Assembly (NCBI RefSeq): GCF_004104375.1
Contig: NZ_QOVM01000001.1
Coordinates: 124,001 to 188,000 of the forward strand
Length of the DNA: 64,000 nt
Direction of reading: 5' to 3'
From: Leeuwenhoekiella aequorea
GTDB taxonomy: Bacteria; Bacteroidota; Bacteroidia; Flavobacteriales; Flavobacteriaceae
The notes under the pieces are model-generated. The model was given only the letters and a program-made list of their open reading frames with translations, had not been told where the DNA came from and did not search any database. Of this stretch, positions 23,905 to 35,486 are shown one piece after another (positions within the stretch are counted from its first letter, which is position 1; each line of letters begins with the position of its first letter). Both the position numbers and the translations under genes were made by a program.

Positions 23905-26900
23905 GTGGAAGGTTTAGAGAGAAAATTAGAAAGCTTTATTAAGAAATATTATAAGAATGAGATTCTTAAGGGTTTTCTATTTTTTATTGGTATTGGACTT
24001 ACTTATTTGCTGGTTGTTTTAGCAATTGAATATTTTTTCTGGTTAAGTAGTTGGGGGAGGGGATTTCTATTTTGGTCATTTGTAGGTATCGAGTTGTTAC
24101 TAATCTATAGGTTTATACTTATTCCTACGTTTCGATTATTTAAACTTTCTAAGGGTATTGATTTTACAGAGGCTTCCTTAATAATTGGAAATTATTTTCC
24201 CGAGGTACGGGATAAATTAATTAATACGCTTCAGTTAAAATCAAATTCTCAGCAATCAGATTTGGTAGAAGCTAGTATTCTTCAAAAAAGCCACGAATTA
24301 GAACCCATACCATTTTCATTAGCTATTAATTATAAATCCAATGCAAAATATATCAAGTATTCCGCTATTCCGGTTCTTATATTTTTAGCTATTAGTTTAA
24401 GCGAATCTTCAAATATTCTAGGTAGTAGTGCAAAGCGTGTTATTAATTATAAAGAGGTATATACACCACCGGCGCCATTTCAATTTACACTTCTTAATAG
24501 AGAACGATCTATTATTTCTGGTAGTGATTTTGAAATTCGTGCTAAAGTTGCGGGTTCAGAAATTCCAGAAGAAGTGTCGATTACAATAAATGAGGTCACT
24601 TATTTTATGAAAAATAAGGGAGGAGGGATTTTTACTTATAAAGTGAATCAACCTAATAAAAATCTCAAGGTAAATTTTTCAGGAAATGGAATATTTTCTA
24701 CAGCGTATGAGTTTAAGATTGTTCCGACTCCGATTATACAATCCTTCAATATGCATCTCCATTTTCCATCTTATTTACAGATGGAAGATAAAATTATAAA
24801 CAATTCGAGCACTATAAAAGTTCCTGAAGGCACAAAAATTGACTGGTTACTTTCAGCAAAAAACACGTCTGAAGTATCGTGGAAAAATGATACACTAGTA
24901 TCGTATTTTAATTTGAATTCAGATATTTTCAGTTTTTCAAAAACTATTTATGAGACTGTAAATTATCAAATAGCTACAAGTAATAAACAGGTGAAAAATT
25001 ATGAAACGCTTAATTATTCAGTTGAAGTTATCCCAGATTTATTTCCAGACATTACTATTGAATCTAAAAAGGATACGTTAGGTACGAGTCAAACTTATTA
25101 TAAAGGATTAATTTCTGATGATTACGGTTTACATGACTTAAACTTAGTTTATTATATTGATAATCAATTAAATAATAAGAAAAGTATTGCTATTCCCACA
25201 AACAATAGCACTATTGACCAATTTTACGTTTCATTTCCCGGTAATCTCAAATTAACTACTGGAGTTTCATATTCCTATTACTTTGAAGTGCGTGATAACG
25301 ATGCTATACACGGCTATAAAAAAACCCAGTCTGAAATCTTTATTTTTCAATCATTAAGTCGTGAAGCTGCAGTAGATAAACAATTAGAATTGCAGCAGAA
25401 TAGTCTTAAAGGAATAGATAAATCTATTAACAAGTTTACTAAACAGCAAGAAGAATTAAAGGTAATACAGAATTTACAAAAGGAAAAGAATAAGCTCGAC
25501 TTTAATGATAAGCGAAAACTCAAATCTTTTATAGAAAGGCAGCAGGCTCAGGAGGAGATAATGAAAAGTTATTCTGAAAAATTAAAAAATAGCCTTAAGG
25601 AATTAGACAAACTGAATGAAAATTCCAACCCTGAAAGCGAGCAGCTAAAATCTAGAGTTGAAGAAAATGAGAAGGAACTTGAGGAACAGGAAAAACTGTT
25701 AGATGAATTGTCAAAGCTCCAGGATTTGATGAGTGATGAGGAGTTAAAAGAGGAGCTCAATAAAATGGCAAAGAATAGCAATAATTCTAAAAGGAGTATG
25801 CAACAACTATTAGAATTAACGAAGCGTTTTTATATTAAAACCAAAGGAGAACGCATAGCGAGACAGCTTATTAATACAGGAGATAAACAGATTAAGGAGG
25901 GTACAAATACAGAATCATCTAATAAAGAAAAGCAGAAAAAGTTAAATGAAGAATTTAGTATTATACAACAATCTCTGCGTGATCTAGAGAAAGAAAATCA
26001 AGGTCTTAAACAACCTCTGGAAGTGCCTAGTGATAGAAACTTAGAACAACAAATAAAAGATGCCCAAAATAAGGCACTTAAAAATTTGGACAATCCTTCT
26101 AACTCTAGTGATTCTAATCCCAAAGAAACTCAAAAGGAAGCTGGTCAAAAACTGAAGAAGCTAGGAAAAAAATTACTTGATTCTTTTGAGTCTGGTGGAG
26201 GAGGGGATACTCAGCAGCTTCAAGAAGATGTTGAGATGCTTCGTCAAATTTTAGACAACTTAATTACGTTCTCTTTTGATCAAGAAGCACTAATGGATAA
26301 TTTTAAATCTATTAATAATTCTAATCCTTCTTTTTCTAAGTTCCTTTTAAAACAGAATGTTTTGCGTGAGAATTTTAAGCATATTGATGATAGTCTCTTT
26401 GCTTTATCGCTTCGCAATGGTTCACTTAAGGAAGATATAAATAAAGAGCTTACTAATATTACTTTCAATCTGGACGCTTCTATTGAGCGGCTTTCTGATA
26501 ATAATGTCGATATGGGTGTGGTTAGTGAGCGGTATGTTGTAAGTTCTTCAAACACACTTGCAGATATGCTATCGAATATTTTAGATAATATGCAAGATCA
26601 ATTGTCGTTAGCTTTAGGCAGTGGTTCTAGTGGTAAGCCTATGCCGCTCCCTCAACACGGAGGCCGGGGATCAGGTAAGCAGCTTCAAGATATTATAATG
26701 TCTCAGCGTGAAATTGCAGAGCAATTAGGTAACGATCAAAACGGTCAAGGAAATGGAGGGGAATCTGGTAAAGATTCTAATTCTAAAGAGTCCGGATCTG
26801 GTAAAAAGGGAACTAACGATTCTAAAAATCCCAAAGTAAATAGTGGCGCTGGTGTAAGTGAAGACGAATTGGCACGACAATTTGAGATTTATAAACAACA

Positions 26901-27270
26901 AGAGTCGATTAGAAAAAGGTTAGAAGATCTTATTAGGCAAGAAGGAATTATAGAGAATGCCTCACAGATTTTCAAGAATATAGATCAAATTGAATCTGAT
27001 CTTTTAAACGGAAATTCTGAACAGGCAAAGCGTAGAATAAATGAAGTTATTCAACAATTCTTAAAACTCGAAGATGCCTCTCAGGAAAAGGACAAAAACT
27101 CTAATCGAGAATCAGTTTCAAATGATAAACTCTTTTCTAATTCGGCTAAAGATATTATTCCTGATAGCGTTCAATATTTTAATTCTAAGGAACTTTTGAA
27201 TAGAGATGTGTTACCTCTTAATACTAGTTACAAGATAAAGGTTAAAGAATATTTACAAGACAATGATTGA
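23905..27270 (+). CDS. DUF4175-like large membrane protein
   Basis: A 1121-residue protein. Two membrane spans lie close to the N-terminus (about 23-45 and 52-72) and a third at about 150-168. A long extracytoplasmic beta-rich part follows (about 185-470). Then come Lys/Glu/Gln-rich coiled coils (about 480-770) and a Gly/Ser/Asn-rich low-complexity stretch (about 890-980). The start is GTG, because no ATG exists in frame before an upstream stop; AGAGG five bases ahead is a rare Shine-Dalgarno-like element here. Proteins of this layout in flavobacteria are labelled DUF4175 and have no known role. It overlaps ybeY by 8 bases. Confidence 0.85.
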   Translation: MEGLERKLESFIKKYYKNEILKGFLFFIGIGLTYLLVVLAIEYFFWLSSWGRGFLFWSFVGIELLLIYRFILIPTFRLFKLSKGIDFTEASLIIGNYFPEVRDKLINTLQLKSNSQQSDLVEASILQKSHELEPIPFSLAINYKSNAKYIKYSAIPVLIFLAISLSESSNILGSSAKRVINYKEVYTPPAPFQFTLLNRERSIISGSDFEIRAKVAGSEIPEEVSITINEVTYFMKNKGGGIFTYKVNQPNKNLKVNFSGNGIFSTAYEFKIVPTPIIQSFNMHLHFPSYLQMEDKIINNSSTIKVPEGTKIDWLLSAKNTSEVSWKNDTLVSYFNLNSDIFSFSKTIYETVNYQIATSNKQVKNYETLNYSVEVIPDLFPDITIESKKDTLGTSQTYYKGLISDDYGLHDLNLVYYIDNQLNNKKSIAIPTNNSTIDQFYVSFPGNLKLTTGVSYSYYFEVRDNDAIHGYKKTQSEIFIFQSLSREAAVDKQLELQQNSLKGIDKSINKFTKQQEELKVIQNLQKEKNKLDFNDKRKLKSFIERQQAQEEIMKSYSEKLKNSLKELDKLNENSNPESEQLKSRVEENEKELEEQEKLLDELSKLQDLMSDEELKEELNKMAKNSNNSKRSMQQLLELTKRFYIKTKGERIARQLINTGDKQIKEGTNTESSNKEKQKKLNEEFSIIQQSLRDLEKENQGLKQPLEVPSDRNLEQQIKDAQNKALKNLDNPSNSSDSNPKETQKEAGQKLKKLGKKLLDSFESGGGGDTQQLQEDVEMLRQILDNLITFSFDQEALMDNFKSINNSNPSFSKFLLKQNVLRENFKHIDDSLFALSLRNGSLKEDINKELTNITFNLDASIERLSDNNVDMGVVSERYVVSSSNTLADMLSNILDNMQDQLSLALGSGSSGKPMPLPQHGGRGSGKQLQDIIMSQREIAEQLGNDQNGQGNGGESGKDSNSKESGSGKKGTNDSKNPKVNSGAGVSEDELARQFEIYKQQESIRKRLEDLIRQEGIIENASQIFKNIDQIESDLLNGNSEQAKRRINEVIQQFLKLEDASQEKDKNSNRESVSNDKLFSNSAKDIIPDSVQYFNSKELLNRDVLPLNTSYKIKVKEYLQDND

Positions 27271-27688
27271 ATTTAATAGTCAAAATAATTTCAGTTTAGA
27301 TTTAGTAGATCAAACTGAGAATTGGATTAAAGCAGCAGCTTTAAAAGAATCGTATGGGATAGAAATGTTGGGTTACGTATTCTGTTCTGATGAGTACTTG
27401 TTAGAAATCAATGAGCAATTTTTAAAGCACGACACCTATACAGATATTGTTACTTTTGACTATACCGAGGGTAAACTTCTAAATGGTGAGATGTATATTA
27501 GTACAGATCGTGTTGCTGAAAATGCAGATAAATTTGGTGTTGAATTTAACACAGAACTTCGCCGCGTTATGATTCATGGACTTTTACATATGTGTGGTTA
27601 TGGAGATAAATCCGAGGATGAAATTAGACTTATGCGGAATAAGGAGGATTATTATTTGAATTTATGGAATACTGCAGAGCCATCTTAG
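27263..27688 (+). CDS. ybeY: rRNA maturation RNase YbeY
   Basis: A 141-residue endoribonuclease needed for 16S rRNA 3' processing and ribosome quality control. The metal site is HGLLHMCGYGDKS, with His105 and His109. The third ligand position of the usual H-x3-H-x5-H motif is Asp115 rather than His. The preceding motif TDIVTFDY (60-67) is typical. The ATG overlaps the DUF4175 gene by 8 bases, so the two are probably translated from one message. Confidence 0.93.
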   Translation: MIEFNSQNNFSLDLVDQTENWIKAAALKESYGIEMLGYVFCSDEYLLEINEQFLKHDTYTDIVTFDYTEGKLLNGEMYISTDRVAENADKFGVEFNTELRRVMIHGLLHMCGYGDKSEDEIRLMRNKEDYYLNLWNTAEPS

Positions 27689-27703: not shown

Positions 27704-27711
27704 TATCTTTG
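27704..27711 (+). promoter_or_regulatory. Promoter -7 box for mnmG
   Basis: TATCTTTG followed by C, a perfect TAnnTTTG, lies 45 bases before the mnmG start and just upstream of the parS-like site. Confidence 0.6.
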
Positions 27712-27739: not shown

Positions 27740-27755
27740 TGTTTCACGTGGAACA
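27740..27755. promoter_or_regulatory. parS-like site (ParB-binding palindrome), upstream of mnmG
   Basis: TGTTTCACGTGGAACA is a 16-base near-palindrome with one mismatch to the widespread parS consensus TGTTnCACGTGAAACA. It directly abuts the mnmG start codon. ParB binds parS near replication origins and recruits SMC for chromosome segregation. A second site lies just after mnmG. No parA/parB gene is in the window. Confidence 0.8.
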
Positions 27756-29633
27756 ATGAGTTTTTTTGATCAAACATATGATGTAATTGTAGTAGGTGGC
27801 GGCCACGCAGGTTGTGAGGCCGCAGCTGCAGCTGCAAATACCGGAAGCAGCACGCTGCTAGTTACAATGAATTTGCAAACGATCGCTCAGATGTCATGCA
27901 ATCCTGCTATGGGAGGAATTGCTAAAGGACAAATCGTTCGTGAAATTGACGCAATGGGAGGCTATAGCGGGATTGTTTCCGATAAGACTGCTATTCAGTT
28001 TAAGATGTTGAATAAAAGTAAGGGGCCTGCTATGTGGAGTCCCAGAGTGCAAAGTGATAGAATGCGTTTTGCAGATGAGTGGCGACTTATGTTAGAGCGT
28101 ACACCTAATCTTGATTTTTATCAAGAAATGGTAAGTGGTCTATTAATGGATGGCGATCGCATAGGTGGAGTAATTACTTCATTAGGAATTGAAATAAAAG
28201 CCAAATCAGTTGTTCTTACAAATGGTACGTTTTTAAATGGATTAATTCATATTGGAGATAAACAATTTGGAGGTGGTAGAGCAGGGGAGCGTAATTCAAA
28301 AGGAATAACAGAACAATTACTTGAGTTAGGTTTTGAATCTGGCAGAATGAAAACGGGTACGCCTCCTCGAGTAGATGGTCGCAGTTTAGATTTCTCAAAA
28401 ATGATCGAGCAGCCAGGAGATGTCAATCCACAAAAGTTTAGTTATAGCAATGTAACAAAACCACTAACAAAACAACGATCTTGTCAAATGAGCTATACAA
28501 GCTTAGAAGTACATGATTTATTGCGAGAAGGTTTTGATAGATCACCTATGTTTAACGGTAGAATTAAAAGTACCGGACCACGATATTGTCCTTCAATTGA
28601 AGATAAGATTAATCGTTTTGCAGATAAAGACAGACACCAACTTTTTGTAGAACCAGAAGGATGGGATACAATTGAATATTACGTAAATGGTTTTTCTACA
28701 TCTTTACCAGAGGAAGTACAATTTAAAGCTTTAAGAAAGGTAGCCGGATTTGAAAACGTGAAGTTTTTTAGACCTGGTTATGCAATCGAATATGATTATT
28801 TTCCACCTACACAATTAAAACATACATTAGAAACTAAGGTAGTTTCTGGTTTGTATTTTGCCGGGCAGATAAATGGAACTACAGGATATGAAGAAGCTGC
28901 TTCACAAGGATTAATGGCTGGAATTAATGCGAGTTTAAAAGTTAAAGAAAAAGACGCTTTAATTCTCAAAAGAGACGAAGCTTATATAGGTGTATTAATA
29001 GATGATTTAATTACTAAAGGAACCAAAGAGCCGTATCGCATGTTTACTTCACGTGCAGAATACAGAACTTTATTGCGTCAGGATAATGCAGATAGTAGAC
29101 TTACACCTTTAGCTCATAAGATTGGCTTAGCTAGTGATGATAGAATGTACGCTTTAGATGTAAAAGAAAAAGAAGCTCAAAATCTAGTGGACTTTTTCAA
29201 CACGACGAGTATTTCTCCAGAGGAAGCAAATCCTATACTTGAGGAGAAAGGGACTTCTCCTATGAAACAATCTGATAAGATGGTGAAGATCTTTAGCAGA
29301 CCTCAAATTGAATTATCAGATATGTTAGATTTTGTTGACGTAAAAGATTACGTTCAGAAAAATAATTTAGATACTGAAGTATTAGAGCAGGCTGAAATTA
29401 GAGTTAAGTATGCAGGATATATTGCTAAGGAAAAAGCTAACGCAGATAAACTTCAGAGACTAGAGAATATCAAGATTCCTGATAACTTTGACTATACGAA
29501 GTTAAAGTCATTAAGTTATGAAGCTCGCGAAAAGCTTTCTAAAATTCAACCTACAACTATTTCTCAGGCCTCTCGTGTAAGTGGTGTATCACCAAGCGAT
29601 ATTTCAGTAATGTTGGTTTATATGGGACGTTAA
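27756..29633 (+). CDS. mnmG: tRNA uridine-5-carboxymethylaminomethyl modification enzyme MnmG
   Basis: A 625-residue FAD enzyme which, with MnmE, modifies the wobble uridine of several tRNAs. The dinucleotide-binding motif VVGGGHAGCEAA sits at residues 12-23. Further family signatures are SCNPAMGGIAKGQIVREIDA and MKTGTPPRVDGR. Later comes GLYFAGQINGTTGYEEAASQG, from which the flavin-contacting glycines can be recognised. The C-terminal helical domain is complete. The coding region is bracketed exactly by two parS-like palindromes, one touching its start and one five bases past its stop. Confidence 0.97.
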   Translation: MSFFDQTYDVIVVGGGHAGCEAAAAAANTGSSTLLVTMNLQTIAQMSCNPAMGGIAKGQIVREIDAMGGYSGIVSDKTAIQFKMLNKSKGPAMWSPRVQSDRMRFADEWRLMLERTPNLDFYQEMVSGLLMDGDRIGGVITSLGIEIKAKSVVLTNGTFLNGLIHIGDKQFGGGRAGERNSKGITEQLLELGFESGRMKTGTPPRVDGRSLDFSKMIEQPGDVNPQKFSYSNVTKPLTKQRSCQMSYTSLEVHDLLREGFDRSPMFNGRIKSTGPRYCPSIEDKINRFADKDRHQLFVEPEGWDTIEYYVNGFSTSLPEEVQFKALRKVAGFENVKFFRPGYAIEYDYFPPTQLKHTLETKVVSGLYFAGQINGTTGYEEAASQGLMAGINASLKVKEKDALILKRDEAYIGVLIDDLITKGTKEPYRMFTSRAEYRTLLRQDNADSRLTPLAHKIGLASDDRMYALDVKEKEAQNLVDFFNTTSISPEEANPILEEKGTSPMKQSDKMVKIFSRPQIELSDMLDFVDVKDYVQKNNLDTEVLEQAEIRVKYAGYIAKEKANADKLQRLENIKIPDNFDYTKLKSLSYEAREKLSKIQPTTISQASRVSGVSPSDISVMLVYMGR

Positions 29634-29637
29634 TTAC

Positions 29638-29653
29638 GGTTCCACGTGAAACA
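29638..29653. promoter_or_regulatory. parS-like site (ParB-binding palindrome), downstream of mnmG
   Basis: GGTTCCACGTGAAACA differs from the parS consensus TGTTnCACGTGAAACA only at the first base. It lies between the mnmG stop and the following methyltransferase gene. With the upstream copy it forms a pair 1.9 kb apart. Confidence 0.8.
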
Positions 29654-29674: not shown

Positions 29675-30520
29675 ATGCCATCAAAATCTAAAGTAGAATC
29701 AACAATGCAGATTAAGGACTTTTCAGTTTCAAAGGAAGAGTTTAATTTGATTTACAATAAAGAATTAGATAAATACACTACAGATCCCATACCTAATAAT
29801 TTAGAGGATTATTACGTAAGCGAAAATTATATTTCACACACCGATTCTAAAAAAACGCTGATAGATAGAATATATCAACTTGTAAAAGGATATATGCTAA
29901 AAAAGAAGCTACAGCATATTAATAGATATAGAAACGGGAATCAGTTATTAGATATTGGTGCCGGAACAGGAGATTTTCTTGTAGCAGCAAAAAATGACGG
30001 ATGGAAGGTAAACGGTATAGAGCCGAGTAAGATTGCAAGAAAAAATGCCGAGAAAAAAGATCTCACTTTATTCGAACTGAAATCTAATTTGAATAATCAA
30101 AAATTTGATTTGATCACTATGTGGCATGTTCTAGAACACGTACCAGATTTAAAAGATCAACTTCAATGGTTAGTTGATCATTTGTATGAGAATGGTACAT
30201 TAGTAATTGCAGTGCCCAATTTCAATTCGTATGATTCAAAACATTATAAAGAATATTGGGCTGCTTGGGACGTGCCAAGACATATTCATCACTTTTCTAG
30301 AAAAAGTATGATTATGCTTTTTTCGGAATTTGGTTTCAATTTGATTGAAGAAAAACCAATGTATTTTGATTCTTACTATGTAAGTCTGCTTTCAGAAAAA
30401 TATCAATCTGGAAATTCTAATATTTTTAAAGCTATAATGAGTGGTTTTAAATCAAATTGGAAAGCTAGACATAGTAATGAGTATTCTTCAATAATATATA
30501 CGTTTAAGAGGGGTAAATGA
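29675..30520 (+). CDS. Class I SAM-dependent methyltransferase
   Basis: A 281-residue cytoplasmic protein. The SAM-binding motif I is LLDIGAGTGDFLVAA (about 91-105), with the acidic residue of motif II in VNGIEPS and motif IV-like TMWHVLEHVPDL. These place it among class I methyltransferases of the Methyltransf_23/UbiE-like kind that often act on small molecules or lipids. The N-terminal 85 residues are a separate helical cap. The substrate is unknown. It follows mnmG after the parS-like site. Confidence 0.85.
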   Translation: MPSKSKVESTMQIKDFSVSKEEFNLIYNKELDKYTTDPIPNNLEDYYVSENYISHTDSKKTLIDRIYQLVKGYMLKKKLQHINRYRNGNQLLDIGAGTGDFLVAAKNDGWKVNGIEPSKIARKNAEKKDLTLFELKSNLNNQKFDLITMWHVLEHVPDLKDQLQWLVDHLYENGTLVIAVPNFNSYDSKHYKEYWAAWDVPRHIHHFSRKSMIMLFSEFGFNLIEEKPMYFDSYYVSLLSEKYQSGNSNIFKAIMSGFKSNWKARHSNEYSSIIYTFKRGK

Positions 30521-33917: not shown

Positions 33918-35486
33918 ATGAGAAAACGTTTTATTATTGGTTATTTTTTGATAACCGCAGTGAGTACATTTGCTCAGAAAAAAGTTATAAATTCTGAAAT
34001 TATAGAGGATGAAAGTTTATCTGATACACTTTCAGTCGTAGATACCTTAGAAATAAAAGAGCTACAAGAGGAAATGTCACAAAATTTCCTTTTTAAGCAA
34101 CGTAAAGGAGGGAAAGTTACTTACAACTTAAATGACCAGGAGTTTCCCTCAAAAATTGATAAAAAGTGGGTTAGAGAGCTTACAAATGGATCGCTATATG
34201 ATTCTATCGAAGCTATAATTGATGAAGACTACCATCTCACAGAAGTAGATTTTCCTGAGCTTACCACAGAAATTCTCAAAAAACGATTATCAGATCTAAA
34301 TGCCCGCACTCCTTTCAATATAGAATACACCCCATCTCTAGAAAATGTAATTAAATCATATCTAAAAAGGCATAAGCCTACTTTAGAGCGATTAATGGGT
34401 TTATCTGAATTTTACTTTCCAGGTTTTGAAGCCACATTTGATAAATACAATATGCCATTGGAGCTAAAGTATTTAGCGATTGTAGAATCTGCACTGCGAC
34501 CAAGAGCAAAATCAAGGGTAGGCGCAACCGGGATGTGGCAGTTTATGTACAGTACAGGAAAATTATATGGTCTTGATATAAGTTCGTATGTAGATGAGCG
34601 TATGGATCCTATTTTATCTACAGAGGCAGCAGCTCAATACCTATCAAAACTTTATGAGATTTTTGGAGATTGGGATTTAGCACTTGCTTCTTATAACTCT
34701 GGACCAGGAAATGTGAGTAAAGCGATTAGACGTAGTGGCGGTAGCACAAATTACTGGAATATACGTCACAATCTTCCACGTGAAACTGCTGGATACATAC
34801 CTGCTTTTTTAGCAACAATGTACATATTTGAATATGCACAAGAGCACGGCTACAAACCGGTTAAACCAGATATTAATTATTTTACTACAGACACCGTTAG
34901 GATAAAACAAACCTTAACGCTTCAGCAAGTATCAGCATATACGGGTGTCTCTTTTGATGAGGTTCAATTTTTAAACCCATCTTACAAGCTTGATGTTATT
35001 CCTTATGTTAGTGATGAAGAATATTATTTACGCCTCCCTGTAGAAGCGCTAGGTTCTTTTGTGGCTAATGAAGATGCTATTTATGCTACTGCAGAAAAAG
35101 AATTACAGCGTGATGAAGCTACATTACCGGCTTTTGTTGAAAATCCTACTAGTGTTACTTATCGTGTGCGTAGTGGTGATTATTTAGGGAAAATTGCTTC
35201 GAAGTACGGTGTAGGGATTTCACAAATAAAACGATGGAATAATCTTCGGTCAAATACCTTACGTATAGGACAGCGACTAACATTGTATCCAACAAAATCT
35301 ATTGTTTCTAGTTCGTCTTCGAGCACTTCAAAAAGTAAATCTCAAAAGTATATTGTTAGAAAGGGAGATAGCTTGTGGAAGATTGCTCAAAAATTTCCTG
35401 GGGTTAGTCCAGATAATTTGAAAAAGTGGAACGATATTAGTGGTAATAAATTAAAACCAGGAATGACCCTGGTGATTGCCAACTAA
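33918..35486 (+). CDS. Lytic transglycosylase with two LysM domains (MltD-like)
   Basis: A 522-residue exported peptidoglycan hydrolase. A signal peptide (MRKRFIIGYFLITAVSTFAQ) opens it. An SLT domain lies at about 165-300, with catalytic Glu190 in IVESAL, followed by GATGMWQFM and LASYNSGPGNV. Two LysM modules are at about 413-458 (YRVRSGDYLGKIA) and 476-522 (YIVRKGDSLWKIA), joined by a Ser-rich linker. It cleaves glycan strands to 1,6-anhydro-muropeptides during wall growth. It is followed 18 bases later by a DUF4837 lipoprotein gene, probably in one operon. Confidence 0.94.
   Translation: MRKRFIIGYFLITAVSTFAQKKVINSEIIEDESLSDTLSVVDTLEIKELQEEMSQNFLFKQRKGGKVTYNLNDQEFPSKIDKKWVRELTNGSLYDSIEAIIDEDYHLTEVDFPELTTEILKKRLSDLNARTPFNIEYTPSLENVIKSYLKRHKPTLERLMGLSEFYFPGFEATFDKYNMPLELKYLAIVESALRPRAKSRVGATGMWQFMYSTGKLYGLDISSYVDERMDPILSTEAAAQYLSKLYEIFGDWDLALASYNSGPGNVSKAIRRSGGSTNYWNIRHNLPRETAGYIPAFLATMYIFEYAQEHGYKPVKPDINYFTTDTVRIKQTLTLQQVSAYTGVSFDEVQFLNPSYKLDVIPYVSDEEYYLRLPVEALGSFVANEDAIYATAEKELQRDEATLPAFVENPTSVTYRVRSGDYLGKIASKYGVGISQIKRWNNLRSNTLRIGQRLTLYPTKSIVSSSSSSTSKSKSQKYIVRKGDSLWKIAQKFPGVSPDNLKKWNDISGNKLKPGMTLVIAN

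Follow-up and report, generated by a model that had tools for sequence, protein, structure and literature searches.

Candidate parS Sites Flank mnmG in Leeuwenhoekiella aequorea and in Most Bacteroidota Examined

Two Palindromes at the Borders of mnmG

The window (the whole stretch of DNA analysed, 64,000 nucleotides of the Leeuwenhoekiella aequorea genome) contains mnmG, also called gidA, between ybeY and a methyltransferase gene, with a parS-like palindrome at either border of mnmG. The features considered below are, in window coordinates:

900–1182, no strand: approximate cumulative GC-skew minimum, ahead of the plus-strand ORF at 1183; inferred origin side
27263–27688, plus strand: ybeY, endoribonuclease (PF02130), upstream neighbour of mnmG
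27740–27755, no strand: parS-like palindrome 1, TGTTTCACGTGGAACA, in the mnmG leader, abutting the start codon
27756–29633, plus strand: mnmG (gidA), tRNA uridine modification enzyme (TIGR00136, 837.7 bits; PF01134), the constant neighbour of the sites
29638–29653, no strand: parS-like palindrome 2, GGTTCCACGTGAAACA, between mnmG and the SAM-methyltransferase gene
29675–30520, plus strand: class I SAM-dependent methyltransferase (PF13489), downstream neighbour of mnmG
33918–35486, plus strand: MltD-like lytic transglycosylase with LysM domains (PF01464, PF01476; NF008050 below cut-off), carrying the third site
34772–34787, no strand: possible third, weaker parS-like site, TCTTCCACGTGAAACT, in the transglycosylase coding sequence at conserved LPRET codons

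A sequence-only reading of this DNA had placed one palindrome against the mnmG start codon and the other just past its stop, each with one mismatch to the consensus TGTTnCACGTGAAACA. All of this is accurate: the upstream copy ends at 27755 and the ATG begins at 27756, four bases separate the stop codon (29631–29633) from the downstream copy that starts at 29638, and either copy departs from TGTTnCACGTGAAACA at one position. Against the degenerate form TGTTYCACGTGRAACA, which is our own pooling of half-site types, the upstream copy matches throughout and the downstream copy at all but one position. Against TGTTTCACGTGAAACA, the search form (two mismatches allowed) of PMC10197239, the two copies have one and two mismatches.

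Five places in the window match TGTTYCACGTGRAACA with up to three mismatches, compared with a mean of 0.54 in shuffled sequences, and none of 100 shuffles reached five. In the whole genome (3,458,071 bases, 18 contigs) palindromes 1 and 2 are the sole places within one mismatch of this form. Two mismatches admit five places, of which three lie in the window within 7.1 kb (27740, 29638 and 34772); the other two, on contig 4 and contig 7, both lack the CACGTG core. The motif is thus clustered in the genome rather than scattered. The earlier list of sites was right about the two main palindromes but lacked the third, weaker one at 34772–34787. Its count of “about a dozen” further CACGTG hexamers was near the actual figure, ten besides the two sites.

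CACGTG occurs 12 times in the window (1–64000), where shuffled sequences average 3.6; the excess may come from half-sites near the origin or from coding constraint. A scan for σ70 promoters around mnmG found 13, with 16.0 expected. By eye, a promoter of the TAnnTTTG type can be seen at 27704–27711 (TATCTTTG). Upstream of ybeY lies a gene for a 1121-residue protein (23905–27270) with a sub-threshold match to DUF4175 and no NCBIfam match.

The Flanking Sites Are Conserved in Relatives

We next consider 80 loci from named relatives, some of them short on one side. They were fetched by MnmG and are the 80 best among at least 592 stretches that matched. Sites with up to two mismatches were present upstream of mnmG in 78/80, downstream in 75/80 and on both flanks in 74/80, compared with 29 of 2735 background 430-bp intervals from the same loci. 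One locus has neither site (L182), one is without the upstream copy (L191) and four are without the downstream copy (L192, L198, L201 and L202). When 120 genomes of the family were searched with the pattern, mnmG was present in 29 of the 30 best-matching loci, the exception being L028. All 13 sites with up to one mismatch in five complete relatives lie at mnmG or within ca. 9 kb of it.

The distance to the mnmG start codon was 0 to 120 bp in 73 of the 76 loci with a core site and negative in three, by our start calls, and the number of copies per locus varied from one to six. Upstream copies that keep the core were sorted by half-site type across the 80 loci, giving C/G (60), C/A (17), T/G (15) and T/A (14); these variants fit a dimer that would read two half-sites.

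Several loci depart from the common form. In five Tenacibaculum/Polaribacter loci (L169, L175, L176, L178 and L185) the flanking sites are degenerate in the outer bases or the core (for example, AGTTCCACGTGGAACT), which suggests a shifted ParB specificity in this clade. A CACATG core, TGTTCCACATGGAACA, occurs in several sites near mnmG in L133, L152 and L167 (a Flavobacterium, a Kordia and an uncultured locus). In L211 the 600 bp ahead of mnmG contain eight sites, mostly 37–62 bp apart, and L133 has a further array ca. 0.4–1.2 kb upstream of the mnmG start.

Conservation across Bacteroidota and Its Exceptions

A draw of 198 genomes from the phylum included 197 with mnmG, and 116 genomes representing all 39 families were examined. 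The first 100 consisted of all 49 genomes of the class, the window's own included, and 51 others, nearly one per genus; 16 genomes were added late, from the nine families whose MnmG diverges most, and were searched by position. Counts of two-mismatch matches per genome were dropped because the reversed-pattern control was similar in size in many genomes, and linkage to mnmG, scored as a site within 600 bp of the gene, was used alone.

Among the first 100 genomes, a site beside mnmG was found in 91: 19/19 in the family, 2/2 in the order, 21/28 in the class, and 18/20 and 31/31 in the rest of the phylum. The reversed pattern was found beside mnmG in 0/100, and a match inside mnmG occurred in 2/100. 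In the nine divergent families, 14 of the 16 genomes were positive, ten of those on both sides (the misses are G227 and G297). Altogether at least one flank is occupied in 105/116 genomes and both are in 44/116, some of the counted sites (for example, in G174 and G289) having matches with two mismatches only. Conservation in relatives, which had been named as a check on the sequence-only reading, is therefore seen both in these genomes and in the 80 named loci. At least one positive genome was present in 35/39 families; none was found in f5, f17, f38 and f39.

The occupied side follows the clade. Both flanks carry sites not only in the family of the window but also in several of those most distant from it, and for this reason the bracketing of mnmG may be old in the phylum. 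Most of the class, together with families f15 and f33, has sites upstream only; f22, f28 and f11 have them downstream only.

The 11 genomes (of 116) with no flanking site comprise 7/28 in the class, five of them in family f5, 2/20 and 0/31 in the rest of the phylum and 2/16 in the late addition. Among the nine negative genomes of the first 100, G210 has no site with up to one mismatch anywhere, and the other eight carry such sites away from mnmG; the two later misses are G227, with four sites on another contig, and G297, with none. In G191 the flanking site is weak and a better one lies elsewhere. Off-flank sites are ca. 26 kb from mnmG in G283 and G191, 12–18 kb in G296 and 118 kb in G295, and are on other contigs in the remaining four f5 genomes and in G153. 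In f5, mnmG is without sites in all five genomes, and threonine synthase adjoins the site in three of the five (L275, L276 and L278). Since sites are found elsewhere in genomes that lack them at mnmG, motif and gene can occur independently of one another, which argues against a plain mnmG operator.

The Sites Lie near the Skew-Inferred Origin

On the window's contig the cumulative GC skew reaches its minimum near 125 kb, i.e., at about window position 1000 and ca. 27 kb upstream of the upstream palindrome. Three complete relatives were sampled with twenty 20-kb stretches per genome, and in each of these family genomes the minus-to-plus switch of GC skew contains or abuts the site cluster. The switch falls between samples at 350 and 520 kb in the first (sites at 353–361 kb), 790 and 985 kb in the second (sites at 932–943 kb) and 200 and 390 kb in the third (sites at 192–202 kb). 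Gene-strand bias changed in the same interval in the first relative and one step away in the other two. Fine maps placed the minimum near 230 kb in G040 (sites at 200–202 kb) and, less sharply, at 400–430 kb in G059 (sites at 359–361 kb). The switch brackets mnmG too in one genome from a different class; in G152, from the same class as the window, skew is too weak to place the origin. By GC skew of its own contig and of the family genomes, the region is near the origin, as the sequence-only reading had supposed.

The dnaA gene lies 0.83–1.52 Mb from the sites in the five complete relatives. A search for oriC by DnaA boxes found no dense cluster, with at most two boxes per 600 bp. PMC10197239, which deals with 12 gut species including two Bacteroidetes, reports that the origin can lie away from dnaA and that clusters of parS are of help in marking it.

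A Matching ParB Is Encoded on Another Contig

Adjacent parA and parB genes are present on contig 2 of the same genome, followed in the same locus by a frame that we take to be dapB. The dnaA gene is also on contig 2, ca. 409 kb from parB. The product of parB matches solved ParB and Spo0J chains (7bnk, E 2.2e-51) and carries the sequences GERRFRA and ENIQR, which are presumably linked to CTP binding. Two longer, closely similar ParB-domain proteins, 601 and 559 amino acids from the listed starts, are encoded on contig 3 (L007, 82–1887) and contig 5 (L008, 1402–3081) and perhaps belong to mobile elements.

To compare specificity residues, ParB was numbered, by motif, after PMC7383237. Relative to the residues given in that paper, the protein has Q162, G170, K171, R173, N178, G201 and R204, and departs at 172 (N instead of S), 179 (Y) and 184 (K). 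In the same source, R173 and G201 go with parS binding, and the Noc type, which binds NBS sites, has Q173 and R201. The protein thus has the parS-type pair and not the pair of a Noc-type binder of NBS sites. It resembles Noc in belonging to a related DNA-binding family, with 239.6 bits on TIGR04285, and in K184, a residue common in Noc; unlike Noc, it scores below the cut-off of that model (315) and has the ParB-type R173 and G201.

The Palindromes as Chromosomal parS

We consider the palindromes to be parS loading sites of a chromosomal ParABS system, with a loading zone tied to the flanks of mnmG in most Bacteroidota examined; the probability of this reading is, in our estimate, about 0.92. 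The sites themselves, their clustering, their conservation, their proximity to the origin by skew and the matching ParB were observed directly, and they lend support to the ParB loading zone near the origin that had been predicted from the window. By every sequence test made, these putative sites belong with chromosomal parS. As in the systems of Bacillus subtilis (Spo0J) and Caulobacter (ParB), the 16-bp palindromes have CACGTG at their centre, are few in number and cluster near the origin inferred from skew, and the genome has adjacent parA and parB genes and a ParB with parS-type specificity residues. Unlike in those systems, the cluster brackets mnmG, parAB and dnaA are on another contig, and dnaA is 0.8–1.5 Mb away in five complete relatives.

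By analogy with the known family, ParB made from the parAB pair on the other contig would recognise each palindrome as a dimer, close there into a CTP-dependent clamp and slide or spread into neighbouring DNA. A partition complex would form, and ParA would use it to separate newly copied origin regions. ParB binding, clamp loading and chromosome segregation are what such sites would be expected to serve.

Among the literature matches listed (titles and abstract beginnings), we found no description of parS flanking mnmG in Bacteroidota, and the survey of Livny 2007 (J Bacteriol) may include some of the sites. The element is of a known kind; its near phylum-wide anchoring to mnmG and a possible third site go beyond the sequence-only reading. 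PMC5603330 lists a gidA-gidB-parA block next to the origin on chromosome 1 of Vibrio cholerae. The present genome resembles that arrangement in having mnmG (gidA) next to the skew-inferred origin, there near a partition gene, and differs in that parAB and dnaA are not beside mnmG; in Bacteroidota the mnmG address may be a remnant of a similar block. Since one gene has kept its sites in 35/39 families, the reason for so lasting a parS address becomes a directly testable question. For many Bacteroidota a working rule would be to take the flanks of mnmG rather than dnaA as the place to look for the centromere and the origin side.

Regulation of mnmG and Other Readings

The upstream copy sits in the mnmG leader, so an effect of ParB on mnmG is possible. 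A stronger proposal, which we regard as unlikely, is that the Bacteroidota centromere is locked to mnmG, with ParB clamps at both flanks tuning mnmG transcription and coupling tRNA-modification output to origin copy number and partition-complex state. If true, such tuning would explain why parS has stayed with mnmG, often on both sides, across families with differing other neighbours: the longest ORF on each side at 15 loci included mnmE, glutathione peroxidase, WYL regulators, SIS-domain proteins, methyltransferases and others. PMC3909081 mentions unpublished tests, done in E. coli, in which neither ParA nor ParB regulated the gidA promoter region of Pseudomonas.

The constancy of mnmG among changing neighbours, and sites at both gene borders with one copy inside the leader, would also be in line with operators for a local regulator of mnmG and its neighbour that have nothing to do with segregation. 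We find this improbable. The motif is that of parS, and a matching ParB is encoded in the genome. A fixed side and spacing relative to mnmG, looked for as the mark of an operator or a leader RNA element, was not found; instead, the occupied side varies by clade, and start-codon distance and copy number vary as given above. The f5 genomes, with their sites away from mnmG and in three cases beside threonine synthase, likewise speak against operators.

Still less credible is a role of the upstream palindrome at the RNA level, either by folding into a hairpin or by providing a micro-ORF (ATG TTT CAC GTG GAA CAA TGA) coupled to mnmG translation. A six-codon ORF does overlap the mnmG ATG in the window, and six-codon ORFs start from the nearest site in 14 of the 76 core-site loci, but an ATG is present at the site in only 34/76 and ORF lengths differ. 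In a transcript hairpin only T/G hybrids would keep the pair; among upstream sites these (15) are no commoner than the pair-breaking C/A hybrids (17), and two types of about equal frequency are not expected of such a hairpin. The downstream copy, moreover, is outside the leader. Hairpin and micro-ORF were both rejected, as the spacing varies, the strands show no asymmetry and conservation is poor.

Chance resemblance in an AT-rich genome, which could appeal to the CACGTG excess in the window and to the many genomes with as many reversed-pattern as two-mismatch matches, has next to no likelihood given the shuffles, and for the two main sites it is refuted by the conservation in named relatives and across the phylum.

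A Possible Third Site in a Lytic Transglycosylase Gene

The weaker site at 34772, a candidate parS, may also be a chance resemblance. The site encodes LPRET, so its likeness to parS could be a by-product of coding. To contain the CACGTG core, LPRET has to be written with the codons CCA CGT GAA, which codon use in the window would yield in ca. 6% of cases (about 0.063). The transglycosylase gene is present in 29 of the 80 named loci; with three genes encoding LPKET left out, CACGTG was found in 12 of 26 LPRET genes.

A second sample of 34 genomes gave the locus in 30 (not in G187, G099, G131 and G214). LPKET genes, one near the sites and four far from them, were again left out. Of the LPRET genes lying no more than 20 kb from the sites, 9/17 contain CACGTG, vs. 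0/8 of those at a greater distance or on a different contig (Fisher p 0.022, kinship ignored). Selection for parS in the coding sequence is only suggested by these counts, since relatedness is uncorrected in them; the conserved codons at the third site may double as parS.
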